From assembly GCA_964036195.1 (NCBI GenBank), contig OZ038452.1, positions 29,027,785-29,091,784 of the forward strand: DNA of 64,000 bases, written 5' to 3'. The notes below the pieces were generated by a model. The model saw only the letters and a list, made by a program, of their open reading frames with translations. It searched no databases and was not told where the DNA came from. Of this stretch, positions 7,201-59,644 are shown piece after piece (within the stretch, counting starts at the first letter, position 1; the number at the start of each line of letters is the position of its first letter). The stretch comes from Sphaerolaimus hirsutus. Its lineage: Eukaryota; Nematoda; Chromadorea; Monhysterida; Sphaerolaimidae. The position numbers and the translations under genes are program-made.

Positions 7201-10200
7201 CGCCGGTGGCTGGACAAGCAGAACCAGGCGGCGCGCAAGGACCGCCGCAAGGCCGAGCTGAAGCGCGTGCGCACGCTGGTCGAGCTCGCCTACGCCAGCG
7301 ACCCCAGAGTGGCCCGCTTCATCGACGACGACAAGGCCGTCAAGCAGAGACAGAAGGACGCCAAGAGGGCCGAGAAGGACGCCAGGCGGATGGCCGAGGA
7401 AACTGTGAGGAGGGGTCGTTTTTTGGGTCTTTGCATTTATTTAAGAATAAAAATATGTGCGGGTGCTGCTTTTTAGTGTCTTTTGTCCATCGATTTGGTG
7501 CTTATTTAAGACCAAATATTTTATGAATAATTATTTGAAGGTGATAAAATTTGTCCGAAAAGATGGCGAAAAATAGAAGGGCGGCTTCCAATGGAAGGGC
7601 GTCTCCTCGGAGGTGCGGGTAAAATCTAGACGAGAAAATAGAAGGGCGCCCTTGTATTCAAAGAAATACGGTAACAACCAGAGGACACTTTTGTGGTCAC
7701 TTTTTTATCAATTAATTCCACTGTCAGGCAAGAAGAGAAGCAGAAGAGGCGGAAAAAGTTCGGCAGCAGCTCGAAGAGGAGCAGAAACGTGCGGCTGCAG
7801 CTGCGGCGCGGCAACTGCGCGAGAAAAATAAGCGCGCCTTCAAAGCCGAGCGCAGAAAACTGTACGACTTTGTGCAGGTCTGCGTTTGCATTTTTTTAAT
7901 ATTTAATTGTGATGAGATAATTTATTTACTGGTTATGACGAGATGGTTGAGGGTTGAAAAAAATCAATTTTTTTCAAACGCCTTCATTTAAAAAATCAGT
8001 TTGAAAAAATTGATTCTTTAAAATTAAAATTAGATTTTTTTCAAAATCGTCCAAAATAAATCAAAATCACATAATCATTCAGTTTTTTTCTCGTTATTTT
8101 CAAATGATCCAGATTCAGATAAATCAGATTTTTCTAAAATCAGCCGGAAAAATCAAGTGCCATCCCATCAAATAGTCACCATTTCCAGGAACACGACTAT
8201 TTTGGTCGCGAAGCGACAGGCAGGGCTCACATAGGCGAACACATAGAACTCATGTGCTCCGCCAGCGACGGCGATCCCGAGCGCTTGGCACAAATCAACT
8301 GCAGACTAGCCGACCCCAGCGTTTGCCAGGACCCGGGCAGGAGATTCGATTTAGTCGTATGTTTGTTTTGCATTATATTTAAGTGATTTTGCTACCTAAG
8401 GGCCCGCACATTAGGGTTGGGAATTTCAAAATTTTCGGGTTCGGGTATCGGGTATCAGGCCCTAAAAATTTCGGGTCGGGTATCGGTTCCAAAAGTTTTG
8501 AGGGTATCGGGTTCGATTTCGGGTAGTAGTTTCGGGTTCAGGTATCGGGTTTCGGTTCCAAAAAGTGTGCGCGTGTCGGGTTCGGGTTCGGGTCGGGTCG
8601 GGTTCCCAACCCTACCACACATACACACTAGTTGACATCACAACTAAATGGGCTCAAGCGATGTTTTCGCGCGCAGATCGAGCAGTTGGAGGCGGAGCTG
8701 GCGGCCAGAGGGGAGGAGCTGGAGCGGCAGCAGCAGCAGCAGCGCAGCGAGTCGGACGCTTTGAACGCGGCCACCATGTCCGCCGGCGGCTGGACGGCCG
8801 AGCAGACGCACGTGCTCGTCAAGGCCGTCCAGCTGTTCCCCGCCGGCACTAGGAACAGGTCTGTGCGCTGTACTGGAAACATATATTTGTCTACTCTGAT
8901 AATTGAAAATTAGTCACTAAATTGACAATTGAAAAACTGGCGATCGGCATAAAAATATTTTGGCATTTCGGCATTAATTGAAAGTTACAATTACAATTAA
9001 TAAAGCTCGCGTATAAATTAATCACCTCTATTAAACCGCCACCTAAATAGTTGTGCTCTTTCCTGCAGATGGGAAGTTATCGCTCAATATGTAAACGACC
9101 ACGCTCGCGATGATGGAGGTAGAGAGAAGTCTGGGAAGGATGTCGTACATAAAGTGAAGGCGCTTCAGAAGATTGGTAAGTGTTGCTTTTGCCACACACT
9201 AAAGTCTACACTTTAGTTGACATCGAGATACATGTAAACTAAATTGAACTAAATTTAGATAGATTTAGTAAGCTTAAATTTTTTGTGTTATTTAGTTGAC
9301 ATTCAGTTGACACGACTTGCGATGTCAACTAGCGATGTGGGCCGGATAGCACGAACCATACACGCGTCAATCCCATTACCATATTCCACCGATTGTAACG
9401 CCCGTCAACTCCCCCCCCCCCCCCCCCCGCAGAAGAAGCCCGAACGGCTGCGGCCAGTCAACAACAACTGGTGGCGGGCAAAAAATCGGAGCGGGTCACC
9501 GCCGAGCCGACGACGCGCGACGCGGCAGAAACGAACGGCGCGGCGACGGGCGGCAAGCCGTGGACTGCAGACGAGCAGCGGCTGCTCGAACACGCGCTCA
9601 GGGGGCACTCCCAGACCCTGTCAAAAGCCCTGTGAAATGTAAAATGTCATGCAAAGCGTCAAAAGTCATGTAAAATGCCAGGTAAAATGGCAAGCTTTCG
9701 TTTTGCCATTTGACCGGTTTTGCCATTTGACCATTTTACATGACTTTTGACACTTTGCGTGACATTTGACATTTTACAGGGCTTTTTACAGGGTCTGGTA
9801 GTGGCACCAGGACGTTCGGCGGCGCCGAGCCGGACAGGTGGGACAAGATCGCCAATTGTGTGTCCACCAGGACCAAGAAAGAGTGCATTGCCAGATTTAA
9901 GGTTGGTCTTTTGTTGTTGTTTTTTTTTGGGGGGGGGTGTTTGTTCAAGGTGGTAAGTGGTTACATTGACACGAAATATGAAATATTAAAAATTGAAAAC
10001 ATAAGGTATCAAAATATTCTACTGAAATTGTGAAAAATAGTTTTTCTGATGTATTTTTTTATTTGCATTTAAATAATTCATTAGTTCATCAAATATTTTA
10101 CTCCAGATTAGGGATGGATAAAAACCGCTTTTTTTAACGGCCCCGCTTTTTTAACGAAACGCGCTTTTTTTCGCTTTTTTTCAAAAAATGTCCAGACATC

Positions 10201-11018
10201 TCCTAGAAAGCCCCCAAATATGGTTCTGAGTCAATATATACAGGTATATCATACAAGTAGCAGTACTTGTGATGATATATAGTCATAGAATGGCTGTGGA
10301 GTCATGGGATAGCATTATAAGTGGTGTTTTATGCCAAAAAAATCCACTTTTTATGTTGACTCGTTATGTAAATTGCTATTTGTCAAATGGTCGTGAGTTC
10401 AAATGAAGTTAGGCATGAAATAGTGCTTAAATAACGTTATAAAAGAAGGCTAATACATTGAGACTGATGTTTCCTACTGTAGAAGTATGTGGAAGTATTG
10501 CTGGATATTATATACTACATTACATATCACGGCTTATTAGTATACGATAGCATGCAAGAATGACTCAAAAAATGCACAAAACCAATGAAAACAACCACCA
10601 GTGGTAATGTGCATGTGAAATTGCGCGCTTGCGCGCAAAAAAAAATTACAAAATACCTAGTGCATAGGTACACCAAGTTTTTGCCAGCGCTTTTTTTTTA
10701 AAGCGCTGGGACCGTTGCGCTTTTTTTATAAAAAAGCGGCGTTTTTAAAAAAAAGCGCTGGCCATCCCTACTCCAGATTCCACAAGTGGAGAATTAAAGC
10801 CGATTTAGAATTTTTGTGTTAGGCATGCACTATATGTGTTTCTAATATAAATCTAGTAATGAAATGTTTTCAGTATATAATTCCGCATCACGAACATAAT
10901 CCTGTACTATTTATTAATTCAGGAACTGGCGGCTCAAGTAAAAGCCAAGCGCGAGGCGCAGAAAAAGTTGCAAGAAGGTAAAGATGGGCAAACGAAAAAA
11001 GAAAATGTGAAGCCTTAA
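4248..11018 (+). CDS. DNAJC2: DnaJ homolog subfamily C member 2 (zuotin/MPP11/ZRF1)
   Basis: This is a J-protein partner of the ribosome-associated chaperone complex; in animals it also binds ubiquitinated H2A and displaces Polycomb PRC1. Exons: 4248-4284, 4834-4965, 5208-5387, 5834-6015, 6363-6577, 7191-7404, 7728-7877, 8189-8356, 8677-8858, 9069-9175, 9433-9601, 9811-9901, 10923-11018. They sum to 1,923 nt (640 aa plus TAA), against 621 aa in human. The J-domain reads [14 protein letters not shown], then [10 protein letters not shown] with the HPD triad split across the 5388-5833 intron, then [22 protein letters not shown] and the EFSYLDEED region follow, then a basic coiled coil. Two SANT domains come last: [20 protein letters not shown], and [13 protein letters not shown] with RWDKIANCV and [11 protein letters not shown]. 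The two N-terminal exons (Met at 4248) are less certain; they rest on phase agreement and a GTTAGT donor at 4966. Reading through that donor gives TAG at 4968. The intron at 9602 lacks GT. Confidence 0.92.
4437..4798. mobile_element. inverted-repeat element (CAGGGACGTATCCAGGATTTTT tip family)
   Basis: The left end reads CAGGGCCGTATCCAGGGGG. The right end is the reverse complement of CAGGGACGTATCCAGG, next to a C-rich palindrome around 4712-4770. The element lies in the second DNAJC2 intron. A relative ends at about 43722. It has no ORF. Confidence 0.55.
4976..5168. mobile_element. inverted-repeat element (CACACTAGTTGACAT tips)
   Basis: The ends read CACGCACTAGTTG and the mirror CAACTGGTGTGTGGG. 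The interior is shared with copies at 11135-11343, 38545-38985 and 49797-50022 (the words GACAGAAACAATGAAGAT and ATGCTCT). The element fills most of the DNAJC2 intron 4966-5207. A related subfamily with a different middle lies at about 5424-5595 and 40170-40378. It has no ORF. Confidence 0.6.
6020..6350. repeat. degenerate TTGAC/CACTTGACTTGTC array in DNAJC2 intron
   Basis: Intron 6016-6362 is mostly short overlapping variants of CACTTGACTTGTC and GACTCGACTTGAC, a degenerate array with partial mirror symmetry. It resembles the interiors of the hAT-like elements elsewhere, but no clear tips or target duplication are visible. Confidence 0.55.
6770..7155. mobile_element. inverted-repeat element (CATGACTAGTGGG tips) in DNAJC2 intron
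   Basis: The left arm has two runs of CTAGTCATGTAAACCC, mirrored at 7110-7155 by ATGACTAGTGGGATTACATG. TGTATTTTGGGGGATTAGCGG is mirrored near 7070-7115. The interior is AT-rich. Related fragments lie at about 33430-33505 and 34145-34240. It has no ORF. Confidence 0.55.
8412..8614. mobile_element. hAT-like MITE, GGGTATCGGGT type
   Basis: The tips are TAGGGTTGGGAA and the mirror TTCCCAACCCTA. The flanks CCGCACAT and CCACACAT match at 7 of 8 bases, which fits an 8-bp hAT target duplication. The interior is a degenerate array of GGGTTCGGGTATCGGG words with no coding capacity. It lies in the DNAJC2 intron 8357-8676. Relatives are at 19778-19968 and 26171-27432. Confidence 0.75.
9602..9810. mobile_element. 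introner-like element forming a whole DNAJC2 intron (GG-AG)
   Basis: The 209-bp intron between the DNAJC2 exons ending LLEHAL and beginning [10 protein letters not shown] is one inverted-repeat element. The left end GGGGCACTCCCAGACCC mirrors the right end GGGTCTGGTAGTGGCAC. CAG lies on both sides. The protein reads correctly only if the whole element is removed, but the first two intron bases are GG rather than GT. The 'GTGCCA' tip that gives the donor in other copies is here at the right, so this copy is in the opposite orientation. Confidence 0.8.
10109..10770. mobile_element. hAT-like element, AGGGATGG tips
   Basis: The tips are TAGGGATGGATAAAAA and the mirror GGCCATCCCTA. The 8-bp target duplication CTCCAGAT is perfect (10101-10108 and 10771-10778). 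The outer parts are degenerate CGCTTTTTTT arrays. The core, including GCGCGCTTGCGCGC and CATGGGATAGCATTATAAG, is shared in inverted orientation with 57441-58049. It lies in the last DNAJC2 intron and has no transposase ORF. Confidence 0.82.
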
Positions 11019-11659
11019 ATGTTTGTGCGTCAGCTAGCTGCACGACATGACTGAACCAATGGCACTTGATATTGTTTATTTTGGAAGGCGGAGTTAAGTG
11101 GCGGTTCATCCACCTAAAGGCAGAAATTGGCCCGAAGACACTAGTTGACACCGCAAGTTCGTGTCAACTGGATGTCAACTAAATGACGCGAAAAATTGAA
11201 AGCATTACACTTAACAGAAACCATGAAAATCAAGTGTCAAAATATAAAATTAACTGTGCTCTATCACCCAAAAAAGTTTCATTATGTGATAAACCAAATT
11301 TTAGTTGACACGTATTTTGATGTCAACTGGTGTGTGGGGCCCAGATGTTGCGCATGGGTTGTCCCATTCCCCTTCAGTGCTTTTACATCTACCTGATTTA
11401 TAATTAGATAAAATTATTTTCATAGTTTCTTCAATAATCCGGTTAAATTTTCAACAAAAAAAGACAGAGGTGCTCGCTTTAAGAAGTCCTTCGTTACGGT
11501 GCCAATTCCACATTGAGACAAGTGACAGGATTTGTGATAAGTAAACTTAAATACTAGTGATAAGTCGAGTGGCGATAAGTTTATAAAGGAAATACTGTCC
11601 TTTTGTAAGTTTGTTTGCCACTCGGTTTGGGTCGTATAAACTTAATTATCACTTCGCAC

Positions 11660-12434
11660 CAGAGTTGTTAAAATACTGGGATTTTTGGAAAGTGTAAGTG
11701 TAAGTGTAAATACACTTTCCAAATTTTGAGTATGGATACAAAAAGTGTAAGGTATTTTAAAAATACCTAGGAAAGTGTAAAAAAAGTGTAAGTGTAAAAA
11801 AAATTTTAGGACGAGCTCTCACTGTTGAGCAGTAGAAAACACCACTGTGTCCATCTTTAGATCAATTTATTTGTCATTTTCATGCATTATTTCACATTTT
11901 ACTGGCTTTTATGAAACATTTCAGACTGTAACAAATACTGTAGTGGTATGAAGTTCCCTAATAATGGCACTTTTTCAGTGTTGATATTTTACTGATTAAG
12001 CAATGCAATACACCCTGTTTAAATGCACGAATGGACATGCAGCAAATGTCAATGCAAAAGCCAGTTGACTTTGTGTCCAACTGGTGAATTTCCATTGATC
12101 TGGTCCTTTTTACAAACGTATGATGAAACTGTAGAATACCATGAGTACTGATCAAAGGTTGGAGATCAAAGGCCACATTTTCTACATTCAATGCATAACT
12201 GCATGTGTGCACTGTGCAGTTCTTTTTTGCACATGACCCTATTTTATGCTTTCTCAAAAGCATAAAACAGGGCCATCTGAAAGAAAAAAATACACTTTCT
12301 GTACCCGGGTATTTGGTTAGGAAAGTGTAAAAAAAGTGTATGGGTATTTTATGAAAGTGTAAGTGTAAGTGTAAATATAAATACCCATTTACCCGGGTAT
12401 TTCGGGTAAGTGTAAATACACTTTCGCAACTCTG
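11660..12434. mobile_element. hAT-like element, GTGTAAGTGTAAATAC type
   Basis: The tips are CAGAGTTGTTAAAA and the mirror TTCGCAACTCTG. The target duplication CTTCGCAC is perfect (11652-11659 and 12435-12442). Both ends are arrays of AGTGTAAGTGTAAATAC variants. The middle (about 11820-12270) is unique-looking AT-rich sequence without a long ORF. Confidence 0.82.
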
Positions 12435-13005
12435 CTTCGCACTTTTCTCGTCGCTCGTCTACTTGCGGGATTGTCCCCTGGTGGCATTCGAAAGTCCTGA
12501 AAAATGCAAAGTAAAGTGTTAAATGTCATGCAAATGCCATGCATAGTGTCATGTTTTTTTTGTATCCAGATTTGGATACGAAAGCATAATATTTGAATAC
12601 ACAATTGACGTTTTTAACGACATTTTTTTCACGACAATTGACACTTTGTACGACATTTTACATTACATTTGACACTACTTTACTTTACAGTTTACAGGGC
12701 TTGGGACTGCCCCAATACTGCTGTTTCGCTTCCGCAGTCATGTAACTAAATACAGATTTGACTTTACACGCCTTGCACAAGCGCCATTGAGTGTTTACGT
12801 TGATTCATTGACCTATTGTGCTTTCCGCGTATTTACTCGTTTTTGTGTTAGCCGCGACGCGAGTCCACTGTTGCTCATAGTCATTATGATGATCATCAGG
12901 TTTCTGGCATTCATTTGTTCGGTTGGAACCATGTTCGTGTCTTTCTTATGTCGAGTGTGGAATGTAAAAAATGTTGAATGTTTTTATCGAATATCGACCC
13001 GAGAT

Positions 13006-13460
13006 CGGAGTTGTTAAAAGTACTGAACTTTTTAAAAAGTAAAGGTAAAGTATTTTTGTTGTACTCAACCCTGAGTACAGAAAACGTAAAGTATTTTTGA
13101 AATACTTTTACGCTGCGTAAAACGTGAGTAAAATGCTTTTTTCTGACAAAACGTAAAAACGGGTATTTTCCTCACAGAAAACGTAAAAGTTAGTATTTTT
13201 CCAATTTTTACTCTGGTATACATAAAGATGTGTTTTTCTCTCCTGTTAAGTATTTCTTAGGAAAATGTTTGTCACTTTCTGTTTGGCAATTAATATTTTC
13301 TGTCCCCTAAAAATACGTTTTCTGAACTCGCGTACTTTTGAAAGTACGCGGGTAAGTGAGTAGCGGTATTGTTGCGCGAGGAAACGTAAACGTATTTACG
13401 CAGTACTCGAGTACGTATACGTATTTATCGAGTAAACGTAAATACGTTTGACCAACTATA
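13006..13460. mobile_element. hAT-like element, GTAAACGTAAATAC type
   Basis: The left tip is CGGAGTTGTTAAAAGTAC and the right part is ACGTAAATACGTTTGACC AACTATA. CCCGAGAT is duplicated at 12998-13005 and 13461-13468. The interior is built of AAACGTAAAGTATTTTT variants. Confidence 0.72.
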
Positions 13461-14229
13461 CCCGAGATATCGATTACTTTAGTATAGAATGTCGATATCG
13501 ACACGACATTGGTTCGAACCCTACATAAATACATGCGGTTGCTTATCGATAGCACTGTAGATTTCTCTGGCTAATTTTTCTCGACCAAATTATTTGATAA
13601 ATATAATATTACGTTTGCTACGCGTGTCACATGGTCACTAATAAGTGTTTTGTTTTGCATTTTTCCAGATTTGTAATGCTAAGTCGCTTGTAAATTGTAT
13701 TGTAATTTGTCCCATCTACGTGCTATGATATTTTCTGGAATGACATGTTATCAGTATTGTTTAGAGCTATTTTTGTTGACGATATTAATGACACACAAAG
13801 TAAACTCGACAGAGTTTGATCGGTGAATTCAGACATTGATTATTTGCACAGCATTGAAAAATATATAGCAAAATCAATTCGCTTAATGCTACTGTCGCAT
13901 TTTCCCTCGACATTGTGTTTAATCCACCAATTATTATCCTACTTCGGGTGGATTAAACCAATTACTATTTACACGGGGCCGCCCCCTTACCCCGTTTATG
14001 TCATCACAAATTTTGTCTGGCAATTTTTATGGTAATCTTAATACACTTGTTTGCGTTTGCTTTGCACGGTTCTGGGGTCCCACAGCCTCTGAAATGCCAT
14101 GTAAAATGTAATCCGCCGGGCAAAATTTTCTACTGGAATTTTACACTACATCCTGCGAATTTACTTGACATTTTACATAATATGTGAATATTTTGACAGG
14201 GTGCGTTGGGCTCGACTATAACAAAGTAT

Positions 14230-14755
14230 CAGGGGTCTCGAATGGGGGGGGGGTTACCCCACCCCCAAACCGCCCAGCTATCTATCTATCCCGGAGGCCG
14301 CTCAGCTATCTATCTATCCCGGAGGCAAAATTTTGGGCTACTACCCCCTAAACCCCCCCCCCCCCAAATCGCCCAGCTATCTACCGATCTGGAGCGATTT
14401 TTGAGAAACTATACCCAAATTTTCGCTCAAAATCGCTATTTTTCATACCTTTTTAAAGATTTTCACTTCCGAAATCATAGTTCTGGTTCCTATTTGCCTA
14501 TTTTTGGCTATTTTTAGTAGTAAATGCTCTTGTGATTTATACCATTTTTGAGTTATTTTACACCTACTTTCAGCGGTTTTTCGCCCTTTCTTCCTTCTAT
14601 GCCCCGAAAGAGCCTATATAGCGAACCACCACAAACCCCCCCCCCCCAAACCCCCCCCCAACCCCCCAAGAAAAATTTTCAGCTATCTATCCCTCTGGAG
14701 TAGCGATTTGCTATCTATCCAACCACTCAGAGGGTCGAAATTCAAGATACCCCTG
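14230..14755. mobile_element. hAT-like element with C-tracts and CTATCTATC motifs
   Basis: The tips are CAGGGGTCTCGAA and the mirror of CAGGGGTATCTTGAA. The 8-bp target duplication CAAAGTAT is perfect (14222-14229 and 14756-14763). The interior repeats GCTATCTATCTATC, CCGGAGG and long C-tracts. Related copies or fragments lie at about 15185-15400, 16501 into the gap, 18295-18520, 20990-21120 and 33656-34136. The right target copy overlaps an ATG at 14762 that opens a probable exon. Confidence 0.8.
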
Positions 14756-14761
14756 CAAAGT

Positions 14762-14907
14762 ATGGACGACGAGCTGTGCGACTTCGACGACGAGATCGCA
14801 GCGGACGCGTGTGCCAGCGGCGCGGCGCCTCCTCTCGCAGACGGCCACCTGCCCGCCGTCGTGGTCGATGTCTGTCCATTCGTGGTTGAAGACTCCGCCT
14901 ATCGCTG
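14762..14907 (+). CDS. possible first coding exon of the CABIN1-like gene
   Basis: From ATG at 14762 a GC-rich, acidic frame reads MDDELCDFDDEIAADACASG and continues to a TGA at 14905-14907. Base composition matches the real exons nearby, and it is the only such island between DNAJC2 and the first CABIN1 TPR exon at 15428. A phase-0 donor inside it (several GT choices after about 14838) would join that exon, but none is strong. It could instead be the last exon of an unrelated small gene. The ATG sits inside the right target duplication of the hAT-like element at 14230-14755. Confidence 0.35.
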
Positions 14908-15427
14908 ACTTGAAGGCTTATTTTACGCCATTTGAAGCGTTTTAAGTCCGCCGAGTATACCATTGTACCCACCTGAACCCCCTCGAGGTTTTATAGCGGA
15001 AATATACTCTCTTTTGTTTTCTGTGCGAAAAAAATAGTCGTTGGAAAACAAATTACTCGCATTTTAAGCAGTGTAAAGTAAAAAATTCACTTCACGTTTT
15101 CTGTACTCAACGATGAGTAAAATAAAAATACTTTACGTTTACTTTGGAAAAAAGTTCAGTATTTTCAACAACTCTGGTGTACAGGGGATAGTAGGGGGGG
15201 GGGGGGTAACTCCACTTTTGTGTACTATATATCCTTATATACCTATTTTTTATGCTTTTTTCCCCGTATATACCTTGGAAAAGCCTATATATTGAACCCC
15301 CCGCCCACCTAAATGTTTTTCCAGCTATCTATCCCTCCTGAGGAGCGATTTACTATCTAAATGAACCCCCGCGGTGGTCCAAATCTGCAAAACCCCTGGG
15401 CGAACGGGGTGCCCAATTGGCGCGCAG

Positions 15428-18400
15428 GACGAGGCGGACTTGGCGGAGTGCATGCGGCAGGCGGCCGGTCTGTACCAGCGCGGCGAGCTGCGCCAGGCCG
15501 TGCACGTGGCCCAGGCGCTCACGCACGCGCACATCTTCGCTCCATTCAGACAGCCCCCGCTGGCCCCGGTGCCAAGGTGCGTGTTCTGTGCAATGTGCTG
15601 TTTTTTGGTTTGGTGTGACTGCGGACCTGTAGACCCGGCGGATATGTAGACCCGGCAGGCATGTATTTCCTCACAAAAACATGATTTATTGACATAGAAA
15701 TTGTTACAATGCACATTTTGTGCAAATGTAACACTGCCTATGAATGATGCAAAAGTGATGCACTTTCCTTCGAGAAGATCACATTTATATGTATAATGTT
15801 TAAAAAATCATCTGTTATTTGTCAGATATTTGTCATAAAATTAATTTAGAAATGCACATTTTGTGCAAGTGTAGGCATGATGAAAAAATGATGCACTTTC
15901 TTCGAAAACATAAATTGTTTGTGTGAAATCTCGAAATACATGCCCGCCAGGTCTACATGCCCGCCGGGTCAACATGTCTGCTGGGTTTACGTGTCTACCG
16001 AGCCTACGTCCAAAAAAATCGCGCGCATTGTTCATACGGCAGCCGAGCGACGACTCGAGCGGCGGCAGCAAGCGGCGGAGGCGCGAGCGCCGCCTGCCCC
16101 AGCTGTACTTGTCGGTGCTGCGGCTGCTGGCCAACGGGCTGTTCGAGCTGGCCGAGTACGGCCGCGCCCTGCGCACCTTCTGCAGCTGGCGCACGAGCGG
16201 CAAGACGCCGGACGCTGCCGACTGGCTGGCTGCCGCTCGCTCCGCCTACCGCCTCAACCAGCTGCACCTGGCCAAGGGACTCTTTGCCAAGGTTTGTGTA
16301 GTTGCCTGGTGAGACTAGCGTTGGAAATGACAATGATTAGCTTTTTCCAATTTAAAATAGTTATAAACTAAAAAAATTTTAAATCGGCTGGGTTGAGTAT
16401 AGAATGTGGACAACTGTGTGTGTGATGACAAATTGTAAGATAGCAAATAAGAGGGCGAGTATTTAGTTGCTTAATAATCATTTTCTTAATAATCAGTGCG
16501 CAGGGTCTCCTAGGGGGGGGGGGCTGCCCCCCCCCAAATCGGCCAGCTATCTATCTATCCGGAGGCCGCTCAGCTATCTATCTATCCCAAGGCAAAATTT
16601 TTGCTACTACCCCCAAAGACCCCCCCCCCAATCGCTCAGCTATCTATCTATCTGGAGTGGTCTTTGAGAAATTTTGCCCCAATTTTCGCTCAAAATCACC
16701 AATTTTCGCACCTTTTATNNNNNNNNNNNNNNNNNNNNNNNNNNNNNNNNNNNNNNNNNNNNNNNNNNNNNNNNNNNNNNNNNNNNNNNNNNNNNNNNNN
16801 NNNNNNNNNNNNNNNNNNNNNNNNNNNNNNNNNNNNNNNNNNNNNNNNNNNNNNNNNNNNNNNNNNNNNNNNNNNNNNNNNNNNNNNNNNNNNNNNNNNN
16901 NNNNNNNNNNNNNNNNNNGCTAAATATGATGGCAACTCAGTGTTTTTACGTCCGTTTCTGTCTCAGGCATTGGAAGTGGAACAAACGGACGTTGTGCTAG
17001 CGGTTGCAATGGAATTGGATTTCGTTGTCGGCGACATTTTCGGTGAGACATTTCTCCTTCAAACAAATCCGGAATAGCGCTTTTTGCGAAGTGTTGCCAC
17101 TTTAAATAGTACCAAAGGTAAAGTGTTCACTTCTGAACCTCGTCTAGGTAGTTCAACGTAAAAGTAAACATTTCCAGACTAGAATTTAGCAAAATTAAAG
17201 TAAGGTGAGAAACGTGATTTAGGCTTATTTCCGCTCAATTTTGACCATTTTCCATTAAAAAATTGTTTTGTCACGCTGTTGTTGTGACACTTTTTTTGAA
17301 ACATTGATGATTTTGTTTTTCAAGAAGTTTATAAGTGCACTCTTATAGCGGATTTTTGATCAATAACCAACCAGAATGTCAACGAGTCACCATTTCAGAT
17401 TTTGAAAGCCCAAACATTCATGTAGCCCGGTACGGTAAATGTGAAAAATACAGTACGGTACTCGTACTCGTGCCGAATCACAGTCTCAACTATTCTGCGC
17501 AGTCGTGTATTACTTATTGCAGTGACAGCCTCATGGACAGTATCACAAACATATTTTTCTACATAAATACAGAACAACGAAATAAACCCTCTAGAAATCC
17601 CCTTTCCAATGGCAGGCTGCGCAGCTCACTGCCACCAGCTGCTCGAATCTTCAAATTGGGAGGACGCCCGCGCCAGACTCATGGCCGCTCACTTGCGTCG
17701 TCTGGGCAGCCCCGGTCTGCGGCGGGAACTGGACACGTGCCAAGTGGGCCCCGCTGGGCCAGAATGTGACGACCAGAGCTTGGAGAGCGTGTGTTTTCGA
17801 TTGGGGTTGGCGGGTTTTTTAAAAGCGCTTTTTCGTATTTTAGCTTTTATTTTCGCTGTTTTAAAAAGCGCTTAAATATTTTCGAATATTTATATATAAA
17901 GTGGGTCGCGGGATTTCAATACATGGGCTTTTTCAGGGGTAAAGGCTTTTTTGAGGGTATTTGTAGGCAACCCCCCCCCCCTCACACCATCAGAGAAACA
18001 GTTTTGGGTTATTTAAGTTTACATTTTTCAGTATCTCGGCCGGCTGCTCGCTGTCAGGCAAAAATTCAACGCGCATCGAAAGAAGGAACTTGAAAAGGAG
18101 TACGAACCGATTGTACCGGATTCAAAGATGTCTTACTCGTGAGTTATTCACACTTTTCTGGCATAGAAATTGTAGCATTACATGTGAATACATAAACGAT
18201 AAACATTTGAAGGTGGCTCTCGTTGGCGGAATGCTTACTGCACACGTTTCAGACACTCATTGACACGATGGACAAGAACCCCACTGTGAGTTGCGCTGGC
18301 ATGGAGGGGTTAGCGGGGGGTTGCCACCCCCCCACCCCCCCCCCCCGAATCTTAGCTGTCTTGATCATGCAAAATCGAAATTTTCAGTCAACTACCCCGT

Positions 18401-21400
18401 TCTTTCCCATTTTACAGCTGAATATTTAGGTCTTTTATTTACCCGCGAAAAACTGCTTACGAAAATAAAAATAGTTGAAAAATATTTACCCCCCCCCCCT
18501 CCGAACCCTCGACAGGCCACACTTCAAGAAATTTGACACTGGACAATATACGCGGGAACATTTCACGCCATTTCAGGCGCTTTCTCGCCCCATTGACACG
18601 AGTGATTGGGCGCGGCGTGGTGCCGCGTCGCTCAGCCAGCCGTCGAGCGGCACAGAGTGGGCGGGCGGCGGCGAGCCTCCACTTGCAGCGGCGGCAGCTG
18701 ACGCGGCGGCGCGTGTCGCTGCGACGGCCGTGCCCGATTCGCCTGCGCGCCACCCGCGCGTCAATGATTTGCAAGCTGGTGAGCAGCAGAGTTGTGCAAA
18801 TACTGGTATTTTTGGAAAACGTAAACGTAAACGTAAATACCTTTTCCAAATCAAAAGTATAAATACTAAAACGTAAGGTATTTTTAAAATACCAAGGAAT
18901 ACGTATAAAAAAACGTAAACGTAAATTTTTTACACACAATAGGTATTTGCCATTGTGCTTTGGAAAATACCATTATTTTCACATTTAGATGGGTCAATCG
19001 CTCCATCCGCACCACTTTCTGTTGTAAGTGCGGCCAAATCCAATTACATTGGTGATTCTGGGTGAGTCCCAGACCCTGTAAAATGCCTTGTAAAATGTCA
19101 AATGGCATGCAAAGTGTCTAAGTCATGGAAAATGCCCTGGAAGGTGGCAAAACTTTGCCATTTTGCTGGGCATTTTACATGAGTTATGACATTTGCATGA
19201 AATTTTGCTATTTACAGGGCATCCTACAGAGTCTCGGATTGGCACCAGAGCTTGCACTCACCCTGCCAGTTTCATAACGTACAACTCACAGCTACTCACA
19301 GTTGTTGCAAGTGGCGTCGTTGGAATTCATCACAAAAATTTATAAACACAAGGCTCCACAAACAAAAAGGTTTCTGTGTTCAGCATTTATACTGGGTACA
19401 TTTATGAATATGTACCCAGTATTTCATGTGTAAGTGGAAGCGTGCAGTCACTTTTTTCATACATCGCTTTTTTGTATGTATACATGTTAAGTTTAGCAAA
19501 AACATTCGAATATTGTTGGCTGCAGATGGTGCGGCCCATTTGACCATGTGCACGTGATCATAAGTTTTTTTACGTTTTCCCTAGTACCCGGGTATTTTGG
19601 TCAGGAAAACGTAACAAAACGTAATGGTATTTTTGGAAAACGTAAACGTAAACGTAAGTATAAATACCCGAATAACCGGGTATTTCGGGTAAACGTAAAT
19701 ACGTTTTTCCAACTCTGGTGAGCAGACTGTCCGGCAACATTCTCATTCGAGTAGTGCACCACTATATAGATACATACTAGGGTTGGGAATTTCAAAATTT
19801 TCGGGTTCGGGTATTGGGTCCAAAAAAGTTCGGGTCGGATATCGGTTCCAAAAAAGTTGCGGGGTTTGGCCATCGGGTTCGGGTATTGAGGTCGGGTATC
19901 GGTTGGGTATAAATCCAAGTGTCGGGTATCGAATTTTAGAATTGTCGGGGATCTGGTTTCCAACCCTAAATACATATACGTAACCGATTACACGCAGCGC
20001 CATCTCCGAACAGCTCTTTGTGCGGGTCGGCCAGCATGGAAACTCTGAGTGCGCCCAGCGAAGACGAAAACAATGTGATCCAGGACAATGGCGATTCCAC
20101 TGGCGACGCTGGCCACCCCCTCGCCAGGCAGAGGAAACACAAGAGACACGTCAAGTCCGACAGAGGTTCCTTCATTGATTGCCTGTTTGCCGTCAAGTGT
20201 ATACGCGGCGGACATCACACTTAGTATAGAAACCTACCATAACCCAACTGAATAAAGAAATAAAAATTTTACAGTTTTTCATCATAAGTACGTTTTACTA
20301 TGGAATAATAAATTACAAAATTTATCGCAACATTTTATTCATTAAATTATGATACGATTCTGCGCATACTTTGCGGTCCGCCGAGTATACCTATCTGTGT
20401 TGCTTAATTTGTGATTACCATTTTCCCTCGAAATACCCCCAGGCGGTTTGTATTTTCAGAGTGCAAATTTTGAGAATGGCGGTTTTTCGAGGTGTATATC
20501 CCCTCATAAGCTCCCTCAAACTTGGTTATTTCGAGGAAATACGGTAATTTATCCACTAGTATACGGTACAAAACAATTCAGTGGGCGACACGAGCACGGG
20601 CGGCAGCAGCGCCGGCGACCTGTACAAGCGGCGGTCGTCTCGCTTCGTGCCCGACATGTCCATCGAGGACGACTTCCTGCAGGTGCGGCCCGTGCCCCTC
20701 GACGACATACTCACCGACGTGTGGACTGGCATTGTCAAAGCTAGGCGGCGACACAAAAGTCAATGCGAGAACAGTGGCAGTGTGTGTCAAACTGAAGAGG
20801 GTGGTCAAAATTTGGATGCGGAATGGGATAAGCGACTCTTTGATGAGCTCGTCAATCGCAAAGAGTTTCTGGACAAGGATGTTACAGCAGAAGAAATAAT
20901 TAATTGGATTGTGAGTTTGTCATTATGGTTGTCTGTGTGTGTATTTCTAAAATTATGTTTAGCTATTTTGTCGTTTTGCGATTTTTCTTTTTGCTTTCTA
21001 CACCTTGAAAAAGCTGGGCCGCAACCCCCCAACTTTTTTCAGCTTTTTCTCGTTCGGGAGAGTCGATTTGCTACCTATCGAACCCCCGTAAATGCCCCGA
21101 TCCTGAGACCCCTTCACCCCTTGCCCATGCAGGACTCGCACACGTTGCACGACATCACCCAGTGCGTGTTCGATTTCCTGGCGTGGTCGAGCGGCGACCG
21201 GTTCTGCGCGCTGCGCTGGTCGCCCCACTGCCGCGCCGCTTTCACCCGCCTCTATGAGTTGATGTGGGATCACAGCGGAGAACCGATACTGGACGCTTTC
21301 GCCCTGGACACCGACAAGCTGTCCAGGTGCCAGTCCCACACCCTGTAAAGAACCCTGTAAAGTGTAAAAGACCCTGTAAGGTGTCGAATGTCAATACCCT

Positions 21401-24400
21401 GTAAAGTGTCGAATGTCATGTGAAAAAACCCTGTGAAATGTCGTGTGTATGTCAATCTTTTTTTATCGTATCCAAATTCTCGTTTTGGATACGATACAAT
21501 AAGATGTGGATACACATGACACTTACAGGGTCTTTTACATGACATTTGACACTTTACAGTGTCTTTTACATGACACCTGACATTTTACATGGTATTTAAC
21601 ACTTTACAGGGTCTTTTACGGAGTCTGGGACTGCCCCAGTGCCGATTTGCGTCGACTCGATGTCGACTTGCTGTACTCCGAACTGTCGACGACCAGGGGA
21701 GGCTGCAGCTTGTTCGCGTACGAGCCGGAAGCAGATGCGCTCGACGGCCCGCCCGACTGCGGCGCGGAGTCGACGTGCAGCGACAAATCGGACAGCGCCA
21801 GGATTCTGGACGTGCTGCGCTGCGCCACGTTCCAGCCCTGCCTGCGGCGGTGGTCGCCCGCCACTTTAGGTTGGATTAGCTATCATATTGAGTTGTCTCC
21901 TGGGTTCCCCCCAGAACGTGTAGACTGCCCTGTGAAATGTCAAGTGTCATGAAAAATGTCAAACGACAAGTATAAATGTAAGTTAAATTTTGACATTTTG
22001 CATGACATTTTACATGACTTTTAACACTTTGTATGAAACATTCGATTTTACCGGGAATTTTCCACGTTCTGGGGTACATCCGCATGGTCATTTGGTGTCC
22101 ATTTGACAATCGCTCATTTCAGGCAGCCGAACGTGTCTGCGTCTGGCCTGGCAACAAGCCAAACTGGAGAAATGTGTCGCTCGATCAACCGACTGCCTGC
22201 GATACGTTCTCGCGGCGCTGGAGAAGCTGCACGAGGATGATTGCCTGCCGCTACCATATACGGACGAATTATTGACTCAGCGGAGAGTGCAGTCTTGCAT
22301 TGATAGGTGGGTAGAGCAGGCACGAATATGAACCATCGATATCGATTGCCAATGGTCCTTCAAAATATTCGATATTCGATTGTCAATGGTCTATTCGACA
22401 TAAAATATTTTACATTTCTCTGACACATTTCTCTGTTTAGTAAAGGTTGCTCCTAACAAAAACAAAAACAATGTATGCAAGAGCCAAAAACTTATGCATC
22501 ACTTTTTGTAATTTTTTTTGTAAAAATCCGTAAAAACATAAAACTAAGTGTCGAAAAACTAAAACATAACTTTTTGGGGCATGTCTATCCGACATTGCCG
22601 CCTCCGTGGTGCAACACACAGTGCGTGGCTTCACCCGCAGTTTGGAGGCGCGCACTGGCTACGAGCGCGCGCGCGGACTGCACGCGAACGGGGACATAGC
22701 CAAAGCGGCCGACGTGCTCTCAGCCGCCTTGGGGCCGTTTGACTGCAGCCGCCACTTCATCGACCGGCACGACGTCAACGAGACGAGTTTGCGTCGCCGC
22801 GCCGACTCGTTCCTCCTGCTGCTCGAGTGCGTCGAGCGCCTGGACGACGGCGACCGGCTGCTGCGCTGCGTGGCGCCCGCTTTGGCCGCCGCTTTGGCAG
22901 TGCGCCAGGTGGATGAGGACTTGTGCTGGCGGCTCGTGTCGCGCTGCTGTGTGCAGCTGCAGCGGGCGATCGCTGCCACGGACAATCCGATTGAGGATGA
23001 GAGATTGCTGCATGCGTTGGTTGGTCGGCTCTACTACCATGCATATACCGTATTCGCTCGAATAATGCCCCCTTGAACAATTCCCTGTTAGATAAGTGAT
23101 GAAAAAACAATTCCCCCCTTGAATGATTCCCTCTGCTGCCTCAAATGAACGTAAAATTCATTCAAATTGTAAATTTGTTCCGTCCAATTTGAACGATAAT
23201 TGTACGATAGATTGTTAATACAGTATATTTCGTGAAATGAATTGATAGGAACATGCTTGAAACTTTTGGCGGGGGGGGGGGAATTATTCGAGTAAATACG
23301 GTAAATACGTATTATTTATGTGACACGTATTTATAATATTCGTGGAAATATGCATATTTACCAAAACGGTCGTGTCGTTCGCAGACCCGGGTCGTGTGCG
23401 CGCTGAGCCTGAACACGTCGTCGAAGCGGCTGGCGGAGCTGGGCGGTGCCATGTGCACCAGTCCGTGGCTGTGTCTGTACGGGATGTGCGCTGTGCTGGA
23501 GCGCCCGCTGCTCGGCGACGCGGCCTACCTGCGCGCGTGGCTGCGCACCGGCACCTCGTCCAAGGTGATCATGTGCAGCCGGGCGCTCACCGTGCTGCTC
23601 GAGTGCCACCGGCGGCTGGGCGCCAAGGCGCTGTGCATGGCCGACGGCGGCCGCCTGCTGAACGCCTTCGTGGAGCAGATCCGCGCGCACCTGCGGCTGC
23701 CCAAGGTGGACGCGGCGCTGAACGGCCTCGACGGCGGCCGCTACAAGCCCGTGCGCAACGACGTGCTGGTGGCCGTCGAGCAGTGCACCTACTGCCTGTT
23801 CAAGTTCCCGGCCAAGCGCAAGCGCTACTTGGACGAGCACTGCGTGCCGCCCGCCGCCATGACGTGGCCCGACGCGGCGCGCCTGTTTGAATTGACGCTG
23901 CCGCCCGCCGACCAGATGCCGGAGTTCGACGGCTACGTCAACGACACCATCAGTGCGGACGCGCAGCAGCTGTTTGAAACCGTTGAGAAACTCATGCCTG
24001 ACAGATCTCAGCCAGGTTGGATAAAAGTAGTGAAATTTTTGTTTAGAAAAGCATTCGGCTGCAACTAAAATTTGCACACTTACATTTAATTTAAGTTTTC
24101 TTAAGTGGCTTTCACACTGTTTTTGACGACAAAACTCGATCAACTGTTGTTTTCGATCAACTCTTGAACATTTTTCAGACGCGGAAACTGTCATCGACTT
24201 CTGGCAACACGTTTCAGTGGGTTATGCGTTTGATGAAGACTCCAAGCCGCTGCTAACAGTGCATCCAGATGATAAATTCGTGTCGACTCATTTGTATCAC
24301 TTGCTGGCAGACTACAATCTCAAAGCCAAGGACTTTGAACGTGCGGCAAAGTTCGTGTTCACATGAGCATTTTCCCAAAACCGTAAATATATCCTCGAAA

Positions 24401-27400
24401 TAACCCCTCAAAATGGTCACTGAAAAAATAACCCCCTCCTCGAAATACCCCCAATTGAGTGTAAAAAGATCGTAAATGACAAAAGCTGCGGTTTGTGATC
24501 CGGGCAATGCAGAACAGGGTTTGTTACGTTAGAACAGGGTTTATACCATCTACATACCTATATAAATCTATAGACGGTTATACATGTTGGTTTTTGTTGC
24601 ATTTTTCAATGTCTACTTATGTTACAAGCAACAAATAAGTACTGGGAGGTTAAGACAATTCGGCAATACCCCCTCGCCCCCCCCCCTCCTTCATTTAACC
24701 CCCTCAAAATCTCCACTTTGAAAAAAAAACCCGTGGGCTATTTCGAGCAAATACGGTAGCAGCCGGCGAGCGATTTTGCAATTTATCTGTTTCACACTGG
24801 TACTACGCATTGGATCTGTGCGTCGACCACTGCTCCCCGCACGCGTTCGACAGCTGCGCGGGACTGGCCCTGGCGCGCGCCGCCCTCTTCCACAACGGCA
24901 TCGAGGAGGTACGATGGTGAAAAAAATTTCGGTTTCTGGGTACCAAAAACGTAGTGGTCCTGAGAAACGTAATTTTTTTCCAAAAAATACTTTCCGAATA
25001 CTCGGAGAAACAAAAACAGCAGAACTTCGTCAATACACGGCAGTTAAACAGTTCACGTGTATCGGAAAATAAATACTGATGATAGTGTGAAATGGTTTGC
25101 ATGAAAATGTTTTCCAGGCGGATACCATTAAGTCGAGCTGAAAACTAGTGGCAAATTTATAATAACCCATTTGAGAACCATTTTGTGAAAATATCTGTGA
25201 TTAACAAATATTTCAAATTTAAAGCTTTCTTTTATTGCAAAAGTTTGACCCATCGTTGATATTCATATGCATATTGATTGAAATTCTGATATAAAAACAT
25301 AATGTTTTTCACGCCACCCTCGTAGGCGATCGCCGAAGAGAACCCGCCAAGCATGGCGCTGTTGATGGAGACGGGCAACCGCACCATGTCCGTGTTCGAC
25401 TGGGCGCTCAGACTCGACGCCGACCACCGCATCCTGGCCATGGAGGCGGCCAGCTTCGCCTACCAGCTCCTGTCGCTCATCAACAAGCACTGCGGCGCCG
25501 CCGGCCTCGACGACAGCCACGACTGCGAGGCCACCAAGCAGCTGCTCGCCCTGCGCCGCCGCGGCAACCAGCTCACCGAATGTGCGGCGGCGCGCTGCAA
25601 CCACCTGCTGCACGAGCTACGCGTCACGTCCGAGCGCTGGCTGCTGCACTACAACCTGGCGCGGCTGAACGAGAAGCAGCGGGCGCCCGTCAGCGCCGTC
25701 ATGTCGCACTACCACCGCGCTGCCGTAGAGCTGGCCGCCGACGGCGCCAAGTACCCGGAGAAGATCCGCGCCGCCTCGCAGCGGTACGCCATGGAGGCGC
25801 TCGATGTGCACTACCGCGTGCACGCCACTGCGCTGAAGTTTCTGCGCGGCACGTCTGTCCGGCTCAGCGGCGTCGGCCGCGCCAAGAACGATCTGGAGCT
25901 AACCGTGGATACATGTTGGTTGTTTGAGTTGATTTCAGGCGATAAACGGGCTTTCAGCACGTTGTAGAATCTCGAAAAACGTGATTTAATCGCGTAAATG
26001 TAAATTGTGGAAAGATAAGTGACAAATACAGTCTTTATCAAGAAACTCTTCTTATCACTTGCTATCACGTTTTTCGCGCTGATCTTCACTGCACTGAGGA
26101 AGGTGCGGATGCGGAATTTCCACATTTTGACCCTTCCGGGGGTTGGATAGATAGCAAATCGCGCAGACAGTAGGGTTGGGAACCCGACCCGAAGCCGATA
26201 CTCGCACACTTTTTGGAACCGAAACCCGATACCCGAACCGGATACCCGACCTCAATATCCGAACCCGCACTCAATACCCGAAAATACCCGCAAAAATTTC
26301 CCACAGTTCAATCTTTCAAGCAGTTTGGTAGCACTGTGAATACATCTTCCAGTTGTTTGGTGCAGTTGTAATTGAAACACTTCTAATCGGTTTGTTTCAA
26401 TTAGTACTGCAATTGATCTGCTTTTTATCATGTACTGCATGTTTTCATTCACATTTGAAAATATTTGATTCAATTGAAGACAATTCTTTTTGCCTTTCCT
26501 TTGGTTGCAGAAAACTGCAAAAAATATGTTACACCATTCATGGGGCCTCAGCAGCTATGGCATGACACTTAGGCGCTCCACACGGTGGTTGACGCTACTT
26601 TTTAGAAGTCGATTGAGTCAACTCAGAGTCAACTGTTTTAAGTATAACTATTTTTAATTGTTTACCTGTGTTGATTAAGAAATATTGAGAAGTCGATTGA
26701 TGTAGAATGAAAGAAGGGGATTTTTTGGATACATATTGTAAATGGCTCAGAGTCAATTGAATTGTTGACCAGTTGACTCTGAGTTGACGCTAATTTTGGC
26801 GTCAACTAGCGTGTGTGGGACCTATGGCCCAACAGGTGCAGCCGTCACTTACTCCAAAATAACAGAACCATTAAGCTCAATTGCTACAACTGGAAATGAT
26901 TACTAAGAAGCATTAAAACATATTTATTTTAGGTTTAGTGCAATGGCTTCAGCAGTTTTAAACAAGCATGTTTAGGTAACAATGTAGGTGAATCTGAATC
27001 CACCAAATATGTTTCTCTATTTTTATGGGCCTCAGCCACTATGGTGTGATGGTATCCACAACAAATGGAGTTATGTTTTATTACACAATTCAATGGTAAT
27101 GCTTATTCTTCAGCACGATGATTTTTTGGAAAAACTGATGCATGTCCATGTGTATTTGCACTTAGTTATACACCTTGTGATAGATACACTACACCATTTG
27201 TTCAATCCAATACCAAATGATTTTATCACTCGAACAGAACAATTATATTACCCGATACCTGAAAATTCTATTACCCGATACCCGACATTTTGACCCTAAA
27301 ACCCGACCCGATACCCGACCTCAATACCCGAACCCGATACCCGCAAAATTTTTGGAACCGATACCCGTTACCCGACCCGAAATTTTTAGGACCCGATACC

Positions 27401-30400
27401 CGAACCCGAAAATTTTGAAATTCCCAACCCTAGCAGACAGCCCCCAGATTTGCGGTTCAGGTAATAGCAGTCAAAAATTTGCCTTGGCATAGATTGATAG
27501 CTGGGTTATTTGTTGGCCCCCCCCCAAAAAAAAACAACAACAACAACCCACCCACATTGGAGACCCCTGCATCTCGGTGAAAAATTTAATTCTTGCTAAC
27601 ATCGAAGGTGCCGGCTATCGGCTGCACGGCGACGACATGCGTGTTTTATCCCGCTACTTGCATATATTTCGTACTCACGGCGTGACTCGAAACGAATACA
27701 AGAGGCGTGACAGTTGCGGTGTTGACAGGTCAGTAGCTTGTGTCAACTCCTCACAACGATGGCTGAGTTGAGGCTGTGCCTGAGTGCATGTTAACCCGCT
27801 GTGCATGTCAGGGGTATTCTAGATTTTGACCCTCCATGGGTTTGGATAGATAGCTAATCGCTTCTCTGGAGGAATAAGTATGAAAATTTGCGATTTTGAG
27901 TGAAAATTAGGGTCTATTTGCGCACCGGGATTACATGCACAGAAGGCCTCAGTCGTTGGGTTGTGTGTAAAATGTACTCTGCGAGCAGACTGCGCGCGCC
28001 GCCGGACGTGGTGGACGCGCTGGACGCGCTCATCGACGCGGTGGTGGACGACGAGCTGCTCATGACCGACGAGGACATCTTCGCAGAGAGCGACGCGCCG
28101 CTCGAGCCCGTCGACGAGGCGGCGCTGCTGTCCATGTGCGTGGACGCGCTGCGGCTGTGCGTCAAGCGCGCGCCCAACTACTACAAGGCCTACTACCGGC
28201 TCGCCTGGGCGCTGTGCCACTTCGACCAGGTGCCACTCCCAGACACTGGAAAAGCCCTGTAGAATGTCAAAGTCATGAAAAGTGTCAAAAGTCATTTAAA
28301 ATACCCTGTAAAATGACAAACGCGTTTGCCACTTTACAGGGCATTTCACATTACTTTTGACACTTTGCATGACATTTGACATTTTACAGGGCTTTCTACA
28401 TGGTATGGGAGTGCCCCCAGCTGCGCGACACGGTGGCCGCCGAGCACGCGCTCCTGGGCCCGGCGACTGCGGGCGACTCGCGCAACCCCTTCGCCGCCAG
28501 CGCCGCCTGGGGCTCGGGCCTGTTGGCGCAGCGCCGCGGCGGCAACCTGTTCGAGGGCGTGTGGCGGCTGCAGATCGAGGACGTGGAGCGGCGCGGCAGC
28601 TTCGCCTGGCACATGACCAGATCAGTGGCTTTGGCTGCGATGCTAGCAGAATGCAACTCGTCCATGGGCCATCTGCTGCAGATTGCTACGGCGCTCGCGA
28701 AGAAACCAGACGTCGATAAGTCCGTCTTTCTGTCGATAAATTGTCGATTGTGTCGATAATGATGTCATTATTCCGCGCAGGATTTACATGTCCGAAGTGG
28801 ACCGGGTGAAATGGTGTGCGAAAATTGTGACAATGGTGCAGTGTGTGGTGAAGCGATTGTGTGTACAAAATGAACGGGAAAAGTTGAAGCGTTGCTGTGC
28901 GGCGTTTGCTATCAATTGGTTGGTTTTAGCGGGTGTTACTTGCGTTAAATTTTTTCATTTTACCTATTTCATTTAAGCTTTTTTGTATTACCGTATTTCC
29001 TCGAAATACCTCCTGGAATTAACCCCCCCCCCTCGAAATACCCCCGGGTACTTTTGAGCTGAGGAAAAAATACCCCCCCCCTTCGAAATACCTCCCGTCT
29101 GGAATGATGTACAGGGTGTCCCACGTCAGGCGCACGGCTTCAATTTGCTTCCCAATTTGAATGAAAACTGCTCAAATTTGGTATGGGGGTAGATAAATGT
29201 ACCCCATTTGTTGTGTTAAGTACAGGGTTACATATCGCACGATTTCGTGTCGGAATGTGAAGCAGTTTCATATTTACATGTTTGAACGTATCCCATTGTA
29301 GGTGGCCCTGTGGAGTGACGTTGTTTTGCATATGATGCGATAAATGTAATAAATTTAGTGATATGAATGTTTGCGCCTAACATACCAAATGGGTCACATT
29401 TATCTACTGCCATGTCAAAATTATACTATTTTGATGAAGAATTGGTGTTCTGGTACACGAATCAAACTGTGCGCCGTATTCAAACACGTATTAAACTGTG
29501 CTTTACGTTCCAATGAAACCATGCACTTAACACAACAAATGGGGTACATTTATCTACCCCCATACCAAATTTGAGCAGTTTTCATTCAAAATTGACGTGT
29601 TGGGAGCCAATTGAATCCGTGCGCCTGACGTGGGCCACCCGATACATCATGTATTCTATGTACATGATGTATTTATCTACCGCAAATCCTCGAATAAGAC
29701 CCCCCCCTCGAATAACTCCCCCCCCTTGAATAACTCCCCCCTGTTGGCGAGGTGAGGAAAAAATAACTCCCCCCCTTGAATAACTCCCCCCTCTCAAAAA
29801 ATCCTCCCTATGATGAAAAGGATACAATGCAAAACTATAAAAGAATAGTAGCCTATGACAGCGACATAATGAAAGCAGATACATAATGTGTATGCAGTGT
29901 ATACACATTGTTATGTTGTTATTGGACGGTGAAATACCTTAATTAAACGAGTTTACATACTGCATCTATACAATGAATTAAGTCCACGTTTCCTGAGGAA
30001 ATAATAACTCCCCCCTCGAATAACTCCCCCCTTGAATAATTCCCCCCTCCAAAACGTCTGACGAAAAAATAACTCCCCTGGGGTCTTATTCAAGGATTTA
30101 GGGTATGTTAGTTTGCATCGCCGGTACACATATACGCTAAGTTGTGAATATATTTACCTATGTATGTTTATATGTCAGATATATCCTATCTGGACACGTT
30201 TATTACCGATTTTGGGTATGTAAAACCGTAGCCTACACTAGCAATTTCACGAAATTTCACGAAATAATAGCCCCTCCCCCTCAAATAAGCCCCCCTTCGA
30301 AATACCCTTCTCAAAATTTCCACTCAGAAAAAACCCTGGGGGTATTTCGAGGAAATACGGTATTTATGAACAAATGTATTACTAAAAAGTTTTCCGAAAA

Positions 30401-42100: not shown

Positions 42101-42460
42101 GTGGCAGTCCCAAGCCCTGTAAAGTGTGAAGTAAAGTGTAAATGGTAAAGACAAATGTTAAGTAAAGTGTCAATTGTCAGGCAAAGTGACAAATGTGAAG
42201 TAAAGTGTCAATTGTTTTCCAAATATTATTTTTTGTATCCAAGATCCGAGGATACAAGTGTAGTAGTTGAGTGAACTTACTACAAGTTACACAATGATGT
42301 ATCCAATGATACAAAAACATAAGATTTGGATACACAATTGATTTTTTTCTTTCCATTTGTCTTAATATTTTACACTTTGCATGACAATTGACACTTAACG
42401 TTTCATTTGACGTTACATTTGACACTTTACCTTACACTTTACAGGGCTTGTGACTGCCCC
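42101..42460. mobile_element. introner-like element, intergenic copy
   Basis: The left end GTGGCAGTCCCAAGCCCTG is preceded by CAG. The right end CAGGGCTTGTGACTGCCCC is followed by CAG. The interior has AAAGTGTCAATTGTCA words and an AAGATTTGGATACAC / GTATCCAAGATCCGAG pair. It carries a GT at the left edge and an AG at the right edge exactly where exon copies have splice sites. Confidence 0.75.
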
Positions 42461-58049: not shown

Positions 58050-58288
58050 GTCTGAATTAATGCTCTGATATGCAAATGTTGATCAATTTTCGTTCAATAA
58101 GAAAAGTATCTTCAAATGAAAAATGCGTGAAAAATGTTGTGAAAAAATTAATGACAGCATCCAATAGAACTTAGCGTATTACCTCTAATTGACCCCCTCA
58201 AAATATCCCCTAATACACCCCCTCGAAATACCCCCATCTTGAATGATGTACATCATGTATGCAATGTATATGATGTATTAATTGCTAC

Positions 58289-59526: not shown

Positions 59527-59644
59527 GATTTGTATCGCGCTGCTGGCACCGGACGGATCGATTTTCCGCCTGTGTTTGGACACTCCTGCACTATTGTTGC
59601 ACTGAATTGTGCTGTGCAGACTTAGTGACCTCACATTTACCGAC

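Follow-up and report, generated by a model that had tools for sequence, protein, structure and literature searches.

In the nematode Sphaerolaimus hirsutus, a foldback DNA transposon of the non-autonomous kind, similar in its behaviour to the NuwaI group within the PHIS (PIF/Harbinger-like) superfamily, has very probably become an introner (rough probability 0.85). The family was followed up from a stretch of 64,000 nucleotides (contig OZ038452.1 of assembly GCA_964036195.1, positions 29,027,785 to 29,091,784 of the forward strand), which as a whole is called the window below, and in which repeat analysis (families D1-D6) showed that one inverted-repeat family supplies all three window introns end to end. 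Introns alike end to end were found in unrelated genes, including a CABIN1-like gene, DNAJC2, a Na/K-ATPase, OSCP1 and others, with borders that are mostly CWG^GT..CCCC^CWG (^ marks the element edge). CTG serves as a target nearly as frequently as CAG, coding sequence included, which the simple GT..AG mechanism does not cover. The origin of introns is a long-standing question, and the survey of introners by Gozashti et al. 2022 had them in only two animal groups (PMC9860276). The present family offers thousands of copies, empty sites in the same genome and a simple proposed origin through one base of a tip, and its target words CAG and CTG form a built-in test of the spliceosome's strictness for AG.

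The initial annotation had described the three introns as complete copies of one inverted-repeat family flanked by CAG on both sides, and coordinates and arm profile agree on this. The profile of the left arm, built from 36 copies with the three window introns included, matches both arms of each intron at E 2.4e-13 or better when searched against the window alone. One host gene is taken to be DNAJC2, backed by a SANT match of 49.4 bits to DNAJC2 versus 48.3 to DNAJC1; the other is presumably CABIN1, though its protein gave a single weak TPR match in Pfam and nothing at E<=0.001 in the protein search. The features concerned are these:

9599..9601, + strand: left target-duplication CAG in the DNAJC2 gene (sequence reading)
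9602..9807, - strand: inverted introner copy in DNAJC2, with the GGGG tip at the gene's 5' side and the GT tip at the 3' side (sequence; gapless SANT alignment over the junction)
9808..9810, + strand: right target-duplication CAG in the DNAJC2 gene (sequence reading)
21324..21326, + strand: left target-duplication CAG in the CABIN1-like gene (sequence reading)
21327..21636, + strand: introner copy in the CABIN1-like gene, GT first, with one C missing from the right tip (sequence; codon test sense p=0.003)
21637..21639, + strand: right target-duplication CAG, proposed 3' splice site, CABIN1-like gene (sequence reading)
28227..28229, + strand: left target-duplication CAG in the CABIN1-like gene (sequence reading)
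28230..28417, + strand: introner copy in the CABIN1-like gene, GTGCCACTCCC...GGGAGTGCCCC (sequence; codon test sense p=0.003)
28418..28420, + strand: right target-duplication CAG, proposed 3' splice site, CABIN1-like gene (sequence reading)

A GT start with the right CAG as acceptor had been proposed for the canonical copies, and both CABIN1-like copies do read CAG^GT...CCC(C)^CAG in gene direction. The DNAJC2 copy is the same element backwards, CAG^GGGGCACTCCC...AGTGGCAC^CAG, and its edge gives GG and no GT.

The family is a foldback, resembling a miniature inverted-repeat transposable element (MITE), with tips GTGSCASTCCCAG... and ...CTGGGASTGCCCC and a 3-bp target duplication outside them; in full, the left tip GTGSCASTCCCAGACCCTGTAAA and the right tip TTTACAGGGTCTGGGASTGCCCC lie between two copies of a 3-bp word. 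A tip search of the whole genome, 348.5 Mb in 762 contigs, returned thousands of matches. At <=2 mismatches CAGGTGSCASTCCCAGACCCTGTAAA was found 12,186 times, a count of ends rather than elements since right-hand ends can match too, and the exact 23-base left tip 2,402 times, each reversed control giving 0. CWG precedes 1,983 of these 2,402 exact tips: CAG was the commonest word (1,081) and CTG nearly as frequent (902), with other words at 419.

Flanking words were compared in 36 unique copies, the right ends being picked blind to the flanking word. The pairs were CAG/CAG in 13, CTG/CTG in 12, CTG/CAG in 3, CAG/CTG in 2 and other in 6 (one of them CAT/CAT), so that left and right words tend to agree (Fisher p=0.0007 on the CWG table), though some pairings may join two adjacent elements, as the CAG/CTG case L022 does (L-numbers denote loci read from the genome assembly). 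Two empty sites were identified. The joined flanks of the L022 copy are 193/200 identical to the paralogous L021 with no gap, and L020 aligns to them at 190/204, the one gap lying elsewhere than at the joint; the L049 copy lies within a repeat that runs uninterrupted at window positions 33723 (77%) and 14303 (76%). These two copies are therefore true insertions that duplicated 3 bp; for the genic copies, gain is argued from protein continuity. Separately, flank words differing at the middle base alone were observed at L094, L098, L099, L018 and window 43815-44111 (CTG/CAG or CAG/CTG), and in the CHGN-like gene of L094 the middle-base change in the right word places AG where splicing requires one.

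When the 36 copies were oriented by their GT end, 29 had G and 5 had T as second base of the right tip, whereas the opposite tip read GTG. The difference between a GTG and a GGG tip suggests that the splice donor arose by one substitution. GT was observed at both tips in L001, L011, L016, L049 and L058, which are spliceable in principle either way round. Forty copies of <=400 nt fold to hairpins at a mean of -0.55 kcal/mol per nt (no shuffle control), and of the 40 nt at the start an average of 30.7 are paired to the 60 nt at the end. Such a hairpin would bring both splice edges together, and our guess is that it may help in choosing the 3' edge.

A CWG target-site duplication (TSD) and GGG tips characterise the NuwaI transposons of the PHIS superfamily, which are reported only from animals (PMC4482050). 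The present family has the 3-bp CWG TSD, backed here by paralogous empty sites, and an animal host in common with them, and one tip of its terminal inverted repeat (TIR) mostly keeps GGG where the other reads GTG; in these features it resembles a NuwaI MITE. It differs in that no transposase is linked to it, its arms form one long foldback, and one GTG tip makes a splice donor. The Harbinger-type DDE domain PF13359 has at least 163 matches in the genome (150 of 306 candidates scored). This PF13359 family was rejected as the mobiliser: 28 of the 30 loci read end in GGGGCC beside AT-rich bases, with L067 having a variant end and L076 lacking GGGGCC. The introner tips were absent as ends from the first nine PF13359 loci scanned, and a second PF13359 group had no family tips in the 1,931 bases read. 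In its own right, L061-L090 is a young PF13359 family, with copies mostly 97-99% identical, GGGGCC ends and AT-rich flanks.

That the genic copies are introns is argued by proteins which continue across them. In the Na/K-ATPase (L029), exons joined over two copies and two other introns give a sequence whose residues 4-250, a stretch of 247, align without gap to 726-972 of PDB 9kcg_A; exact removal of the copies is therefore expected. OSCP1 (L053) carries one copy at CAG and one at CTG, and the Pfam Oscp1 profile is gapless over both (residues 25-73 to profile 1-49, E 4.9e-19, for the CAG copy; residues 7-48 to profile 48-89, E 4.4e-17, for the CTG copy). The SANT domain of DNAJC2 is gapless over the inverted copy if this is excised exactly. 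In CHGN (L094; left CTG, right CAG) the profile spans the joint with 87 residues versus 85 positions and is not gapless. By reading, the conventional introns in Na/K-ATPase and OSCP1 are GT-AG, and the tip GT and the duplication AG occur together in two CABIN1-like, two Na/K-ATPase and one OSCP1 introns. The closest database relative of OSCP1 is Plectus sambesii (76% identity over 109 residues), while the bryozoan Watersipora reaches 62%; a FastTree of these 109 residues groups it with Plectus, Toxocara, Romanomermis, Trichinella, Mesorhabditis and three metagenome proteins (support 0.855, next node 0.029, for a single short gene). Thousands of copies, 3-bp duplications against empty sites, tip GT with duplication AG, and gapless homology together uphold the introner interpretation of the initial annotation; its simple GT..AG mechanism suits the CAG sense copies and leaves the CTG targets inside coding sequence unexplained.

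A mechanism is proposed as follows. The element would insert mostly at CWG and duplicate 3 bp, a step demonstrated in sequence. GGG would be retained at one tip, and GTG at the other would serve as 5' splice site, forming CAG^GT.. with a target CAG as seen in sequence; the duplicated CAG opposite, ending ..CCCCCAG, would act as 3' splice site, as the gapless homologous proteins suggest. A sense insertion at a CAG target would thus bring in a whole GT-AG intron and not alter the protein. For sense CTG copies persisting in coding sequence, the host would most likely finish splicing with TG at the hairpin base.

The orientation of copies within genes was assessed by a codon test that used shuffled flanks as nulls and leave-one-gene-out training on 995 codons. 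The 50 copies scored, among them those of the window introns, had both ends; ten lacking a recognised right end were omitted, each duplicate entered a single time, and a right end whose word matched was preferred. The sample was not random, since the pattern that selected L001-L030 contained CAG and the one for L091-L100 contained CTG. On the GT-first strand 13 copies reach p<=0.01 (one of them, L095, looks AT-rich and non-coding), and on the opposite strand 5, namely the two OSCP1 copies, which are sense by homology, the DNAJC2 copy, and L001 and L058, whose tips both carry GT. Against the trend, L100 reaches p=0.04 in antisense as well. This bias points to excision at the RNA level, GT end leading, and speaks against orientation-blind excision from DNA.

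Copies at CTG were sampled in listed order (19 copies, 9 + 10; L096 without right end). Eight CTG/CTG copies were read as sense coding (L036, L048, L050, L053, L091, L092, L093, L100), and the codon test supports L036, L050, L053, L092 and L100 (p<=0.01) and L048 (0.033), and not L091 or L093; the protein search for L100 found nothing at E<=0.001. L094 (codon p=0.003) and L099 (p=0.55), with left CTG and right CAG, were also read as coding. With CTG on both sides, exact excision requires GT..TG. Because no GT..AG pair inside the element preserves the frame of OSCP1 (0/31), the CTG copy in this conserved gene suggests GT-TG splicing. Sequence similarity bears on this too: the ten CTG copies read as coding score 0.88/0.88 to the consensus against group means of 0.86-0.89/0.81-0.84, and the assembly yielded just one locus for OSCP1. 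As these copies are no nearer the consensus and OSCP1 has a single locus, we give about even odds that the host finishes splicing at the hairpin base with TG instead of AG. The broader proposal, that the genome holds hundreds of functional GT-TG introns, the introner needing only its own GT while the host accepts either CWG at the hairpin base, is put forward tentatively at somewhat under even odds, "hundreds" being an extrapolation from five of the 19 sampled CTG copies to the 902. If GT-TG introns are real, a single target base, A or T, would make a genome-wide natural experiment on the AG rule. As a separate observation, the copy at L008 (793-1171) stands at the apparent last CTG of an exon presumably of SET/MYND type, beside an existing intron start; that exon had no Pfam match.

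The main rival to TG splicing holds that the sense CTG copies are unspliced, recent and harmful insertions, caught in a single assembled haplotype or sitting in genes that are dying, and that the CAG copies alone are introns. This is a possible explanation that we nonetheless hold to be doubtful. The exact 23-base tip search favours young copies, and L048, L053 and L093 hold CTG copies whose arms match the consensus at 92-98%. Yet the five CTG/CTG copies that pass the sense codon test at p<=0.01, joined by L094 and the non-coding-looking L095, set against 0/18 passing in antisense alone, speak against it, as do the consensus similarities and the single OSCP1 locus, and so many genes broken simultaneously would be improbable.

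Unlikely, by our estimate, is that the CTG copies are spliced through an ordinary GT-AG pair inside the element or with an AG of the next exon, gaining or losing a few codons. The G-form right tip, ..GAG^TGCCCC, provides an AG that adds 9 nt in frame in L048, L093 and L100, and an open in-frame GT..AG pair occurs in 6/8 copies examined, which hold 2 to 19 frame-preserving pairs each; but besides OSCP1 none occurs in L091 (0/44), and the AG met first in the following exon keeps the frame in no more than 3/8 CTG copies; OSCP1 is one of these, and there its use would remove six residues of a conserved stretch. The inverted DNAJC2 copy lends this explanation some weight. Its first 90 bases contain eight GT donors, of which, with the CAG duplication as acceptor, +18 and +30 are in frame and the other six run into stops; GTCAAA at +18 adds 6 residues and GTGAAA at +30 adds 10 to the SANT domain. 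This copy probably uses one of these two inner donors or a non-canonical edge.

Ciliate internal eliminated sequences (IESs) are removed from DNA, and the non-conventional introns of euglenids are removed from RNA by a structure-led, non-spliceosomal process. That the present elements leave in either way, with the hairpin joining the CWG copies, would fit the strong hairpins and an AG that is not always on offer, and is nevertheless improbable: both processes would ignore orientation, yet coding copies are nearly all GT-first in gene direction, and in the genes concerned the conventional introns read as GT-AG. Orientation-neutral excision of the ciliate IES type is contradicted by the strong sense bias in the codon test. 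That ordinary MITEs merely fell into older introns, creating none, is barely credible, for although many copies are non-coding and L008 (793-1171) apparently lies beside an existing donor, the frame runs on across the element in CABIN1-like, Na/K-ATPase, OSCP1 and CHGN with nothing else in the intron, which already contradicts it for these genes at sequence level.

Several points weigh against a NuwaI-like transposon turned introner. No autonomous element with introner tips was found among the PF13359 loci examined; the exact GT-AG borders of the copies are derived from sequence and homologous proteins; and the genic CTG copies demand an unusual 3' splice site. Furthermore, the codon table is small (995 codons), and p>0.05 was obtained for many copies read as coding by eye, among them CTG copies L091 (0.71), L093 (0.64) and L099 (0.55) and CAG copies L008, L012, L017, L026, L027 and L030, with L026 giving an antisense p of 0.013 though read as sense.

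Further family copies lie in the window on the + strand. Two of them, 42101-42460 and 43815-44111, had been named before as family members and were found to be so:

2753..2939: older copy of approximate extent, with a clear left tip and a decayed right end (profile search and reading)
12481..12713: copy with left CTG, right flank AAT (profile search and reading)
19062..19245: diverged copy, tip now GTGAGTCCC, coding status not established (profile search and reading)
39231..39874: arms of both sides, from at least one copy, uncertain extent (profile search)
42101..42460: copy in apparently non-coding surroundings, CAG/CAG duplication (sequence reading)
43815..44111: copy in apparently non-coding surroundings, left CAG, right CTG (sequence reading)

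Elsewhere in the window, a HECT-domain exon (606-1202, Pfam E 2.2e-24) lies upstream of DNAJC2. The GCCCAGCTATCTATCTATCC repeat family occupies 14244-16653 and 33664-33812, and the TACCGTATTTCCTCGAAATACCCCC and GGCGCC-rich repeat families are spread over the window. Identical direct repeats of 300 nt (58288-58587 and 62518-62817) surround an 881-codon open frame (59606-62251) that had no Pfam match, and repeats and frame look like a young retroelement of the long terminal repeat type. An Rfam scan of the window at gathering thresholds gave 0 matches.

Compared with the surveyed introners (PMC9860276), the family is alike in being a non-autonomous DNA transposon with TIRs, a short TSD and high copy number, in leaving the protein unchanged after removal, and in having one splice site in the element and the other from the TSD. 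Per genome, the number of introns from a surveyed family runs from 5 to more than 2,000; in the present case a single family with 2,402 exact tips genome-wide, of which introns are only a part, resides in a nematode host, and nearly half of its CWG targets yield TG, not AG, at the 3' edge. A limited literature search on introners and nematodes found no nematode introner family in titles and abstract openings. The non-canonical introns of Fritillaria borealis likewise break the GT-AG rule in an animal, and introner transposons with weak splice sites were named as a possible source of divergence there (PMC13326754). They differ by AG/AC and AG/AT borders with YAY triplets, whereas here GT is kept, the 3' edge is AG or TG, and the duplications are CWG; with borders of CWG^GT..CCCC^CWG, introns of the Fritillaria type were ruled out. 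TG as 3' splice site of U2-type introns amounts to ~0.02% overall, and in human it was described for alternative 3' splice sites in 36 genes (PMC2374985); in OSCP1, by difference, TG would preserve the frame and no inner GT..AG pair does. In conclusion, if the proposed origin is true, a change from GGG to GTG at tip position 2 turned a NuwaI-like MITE into an introner.

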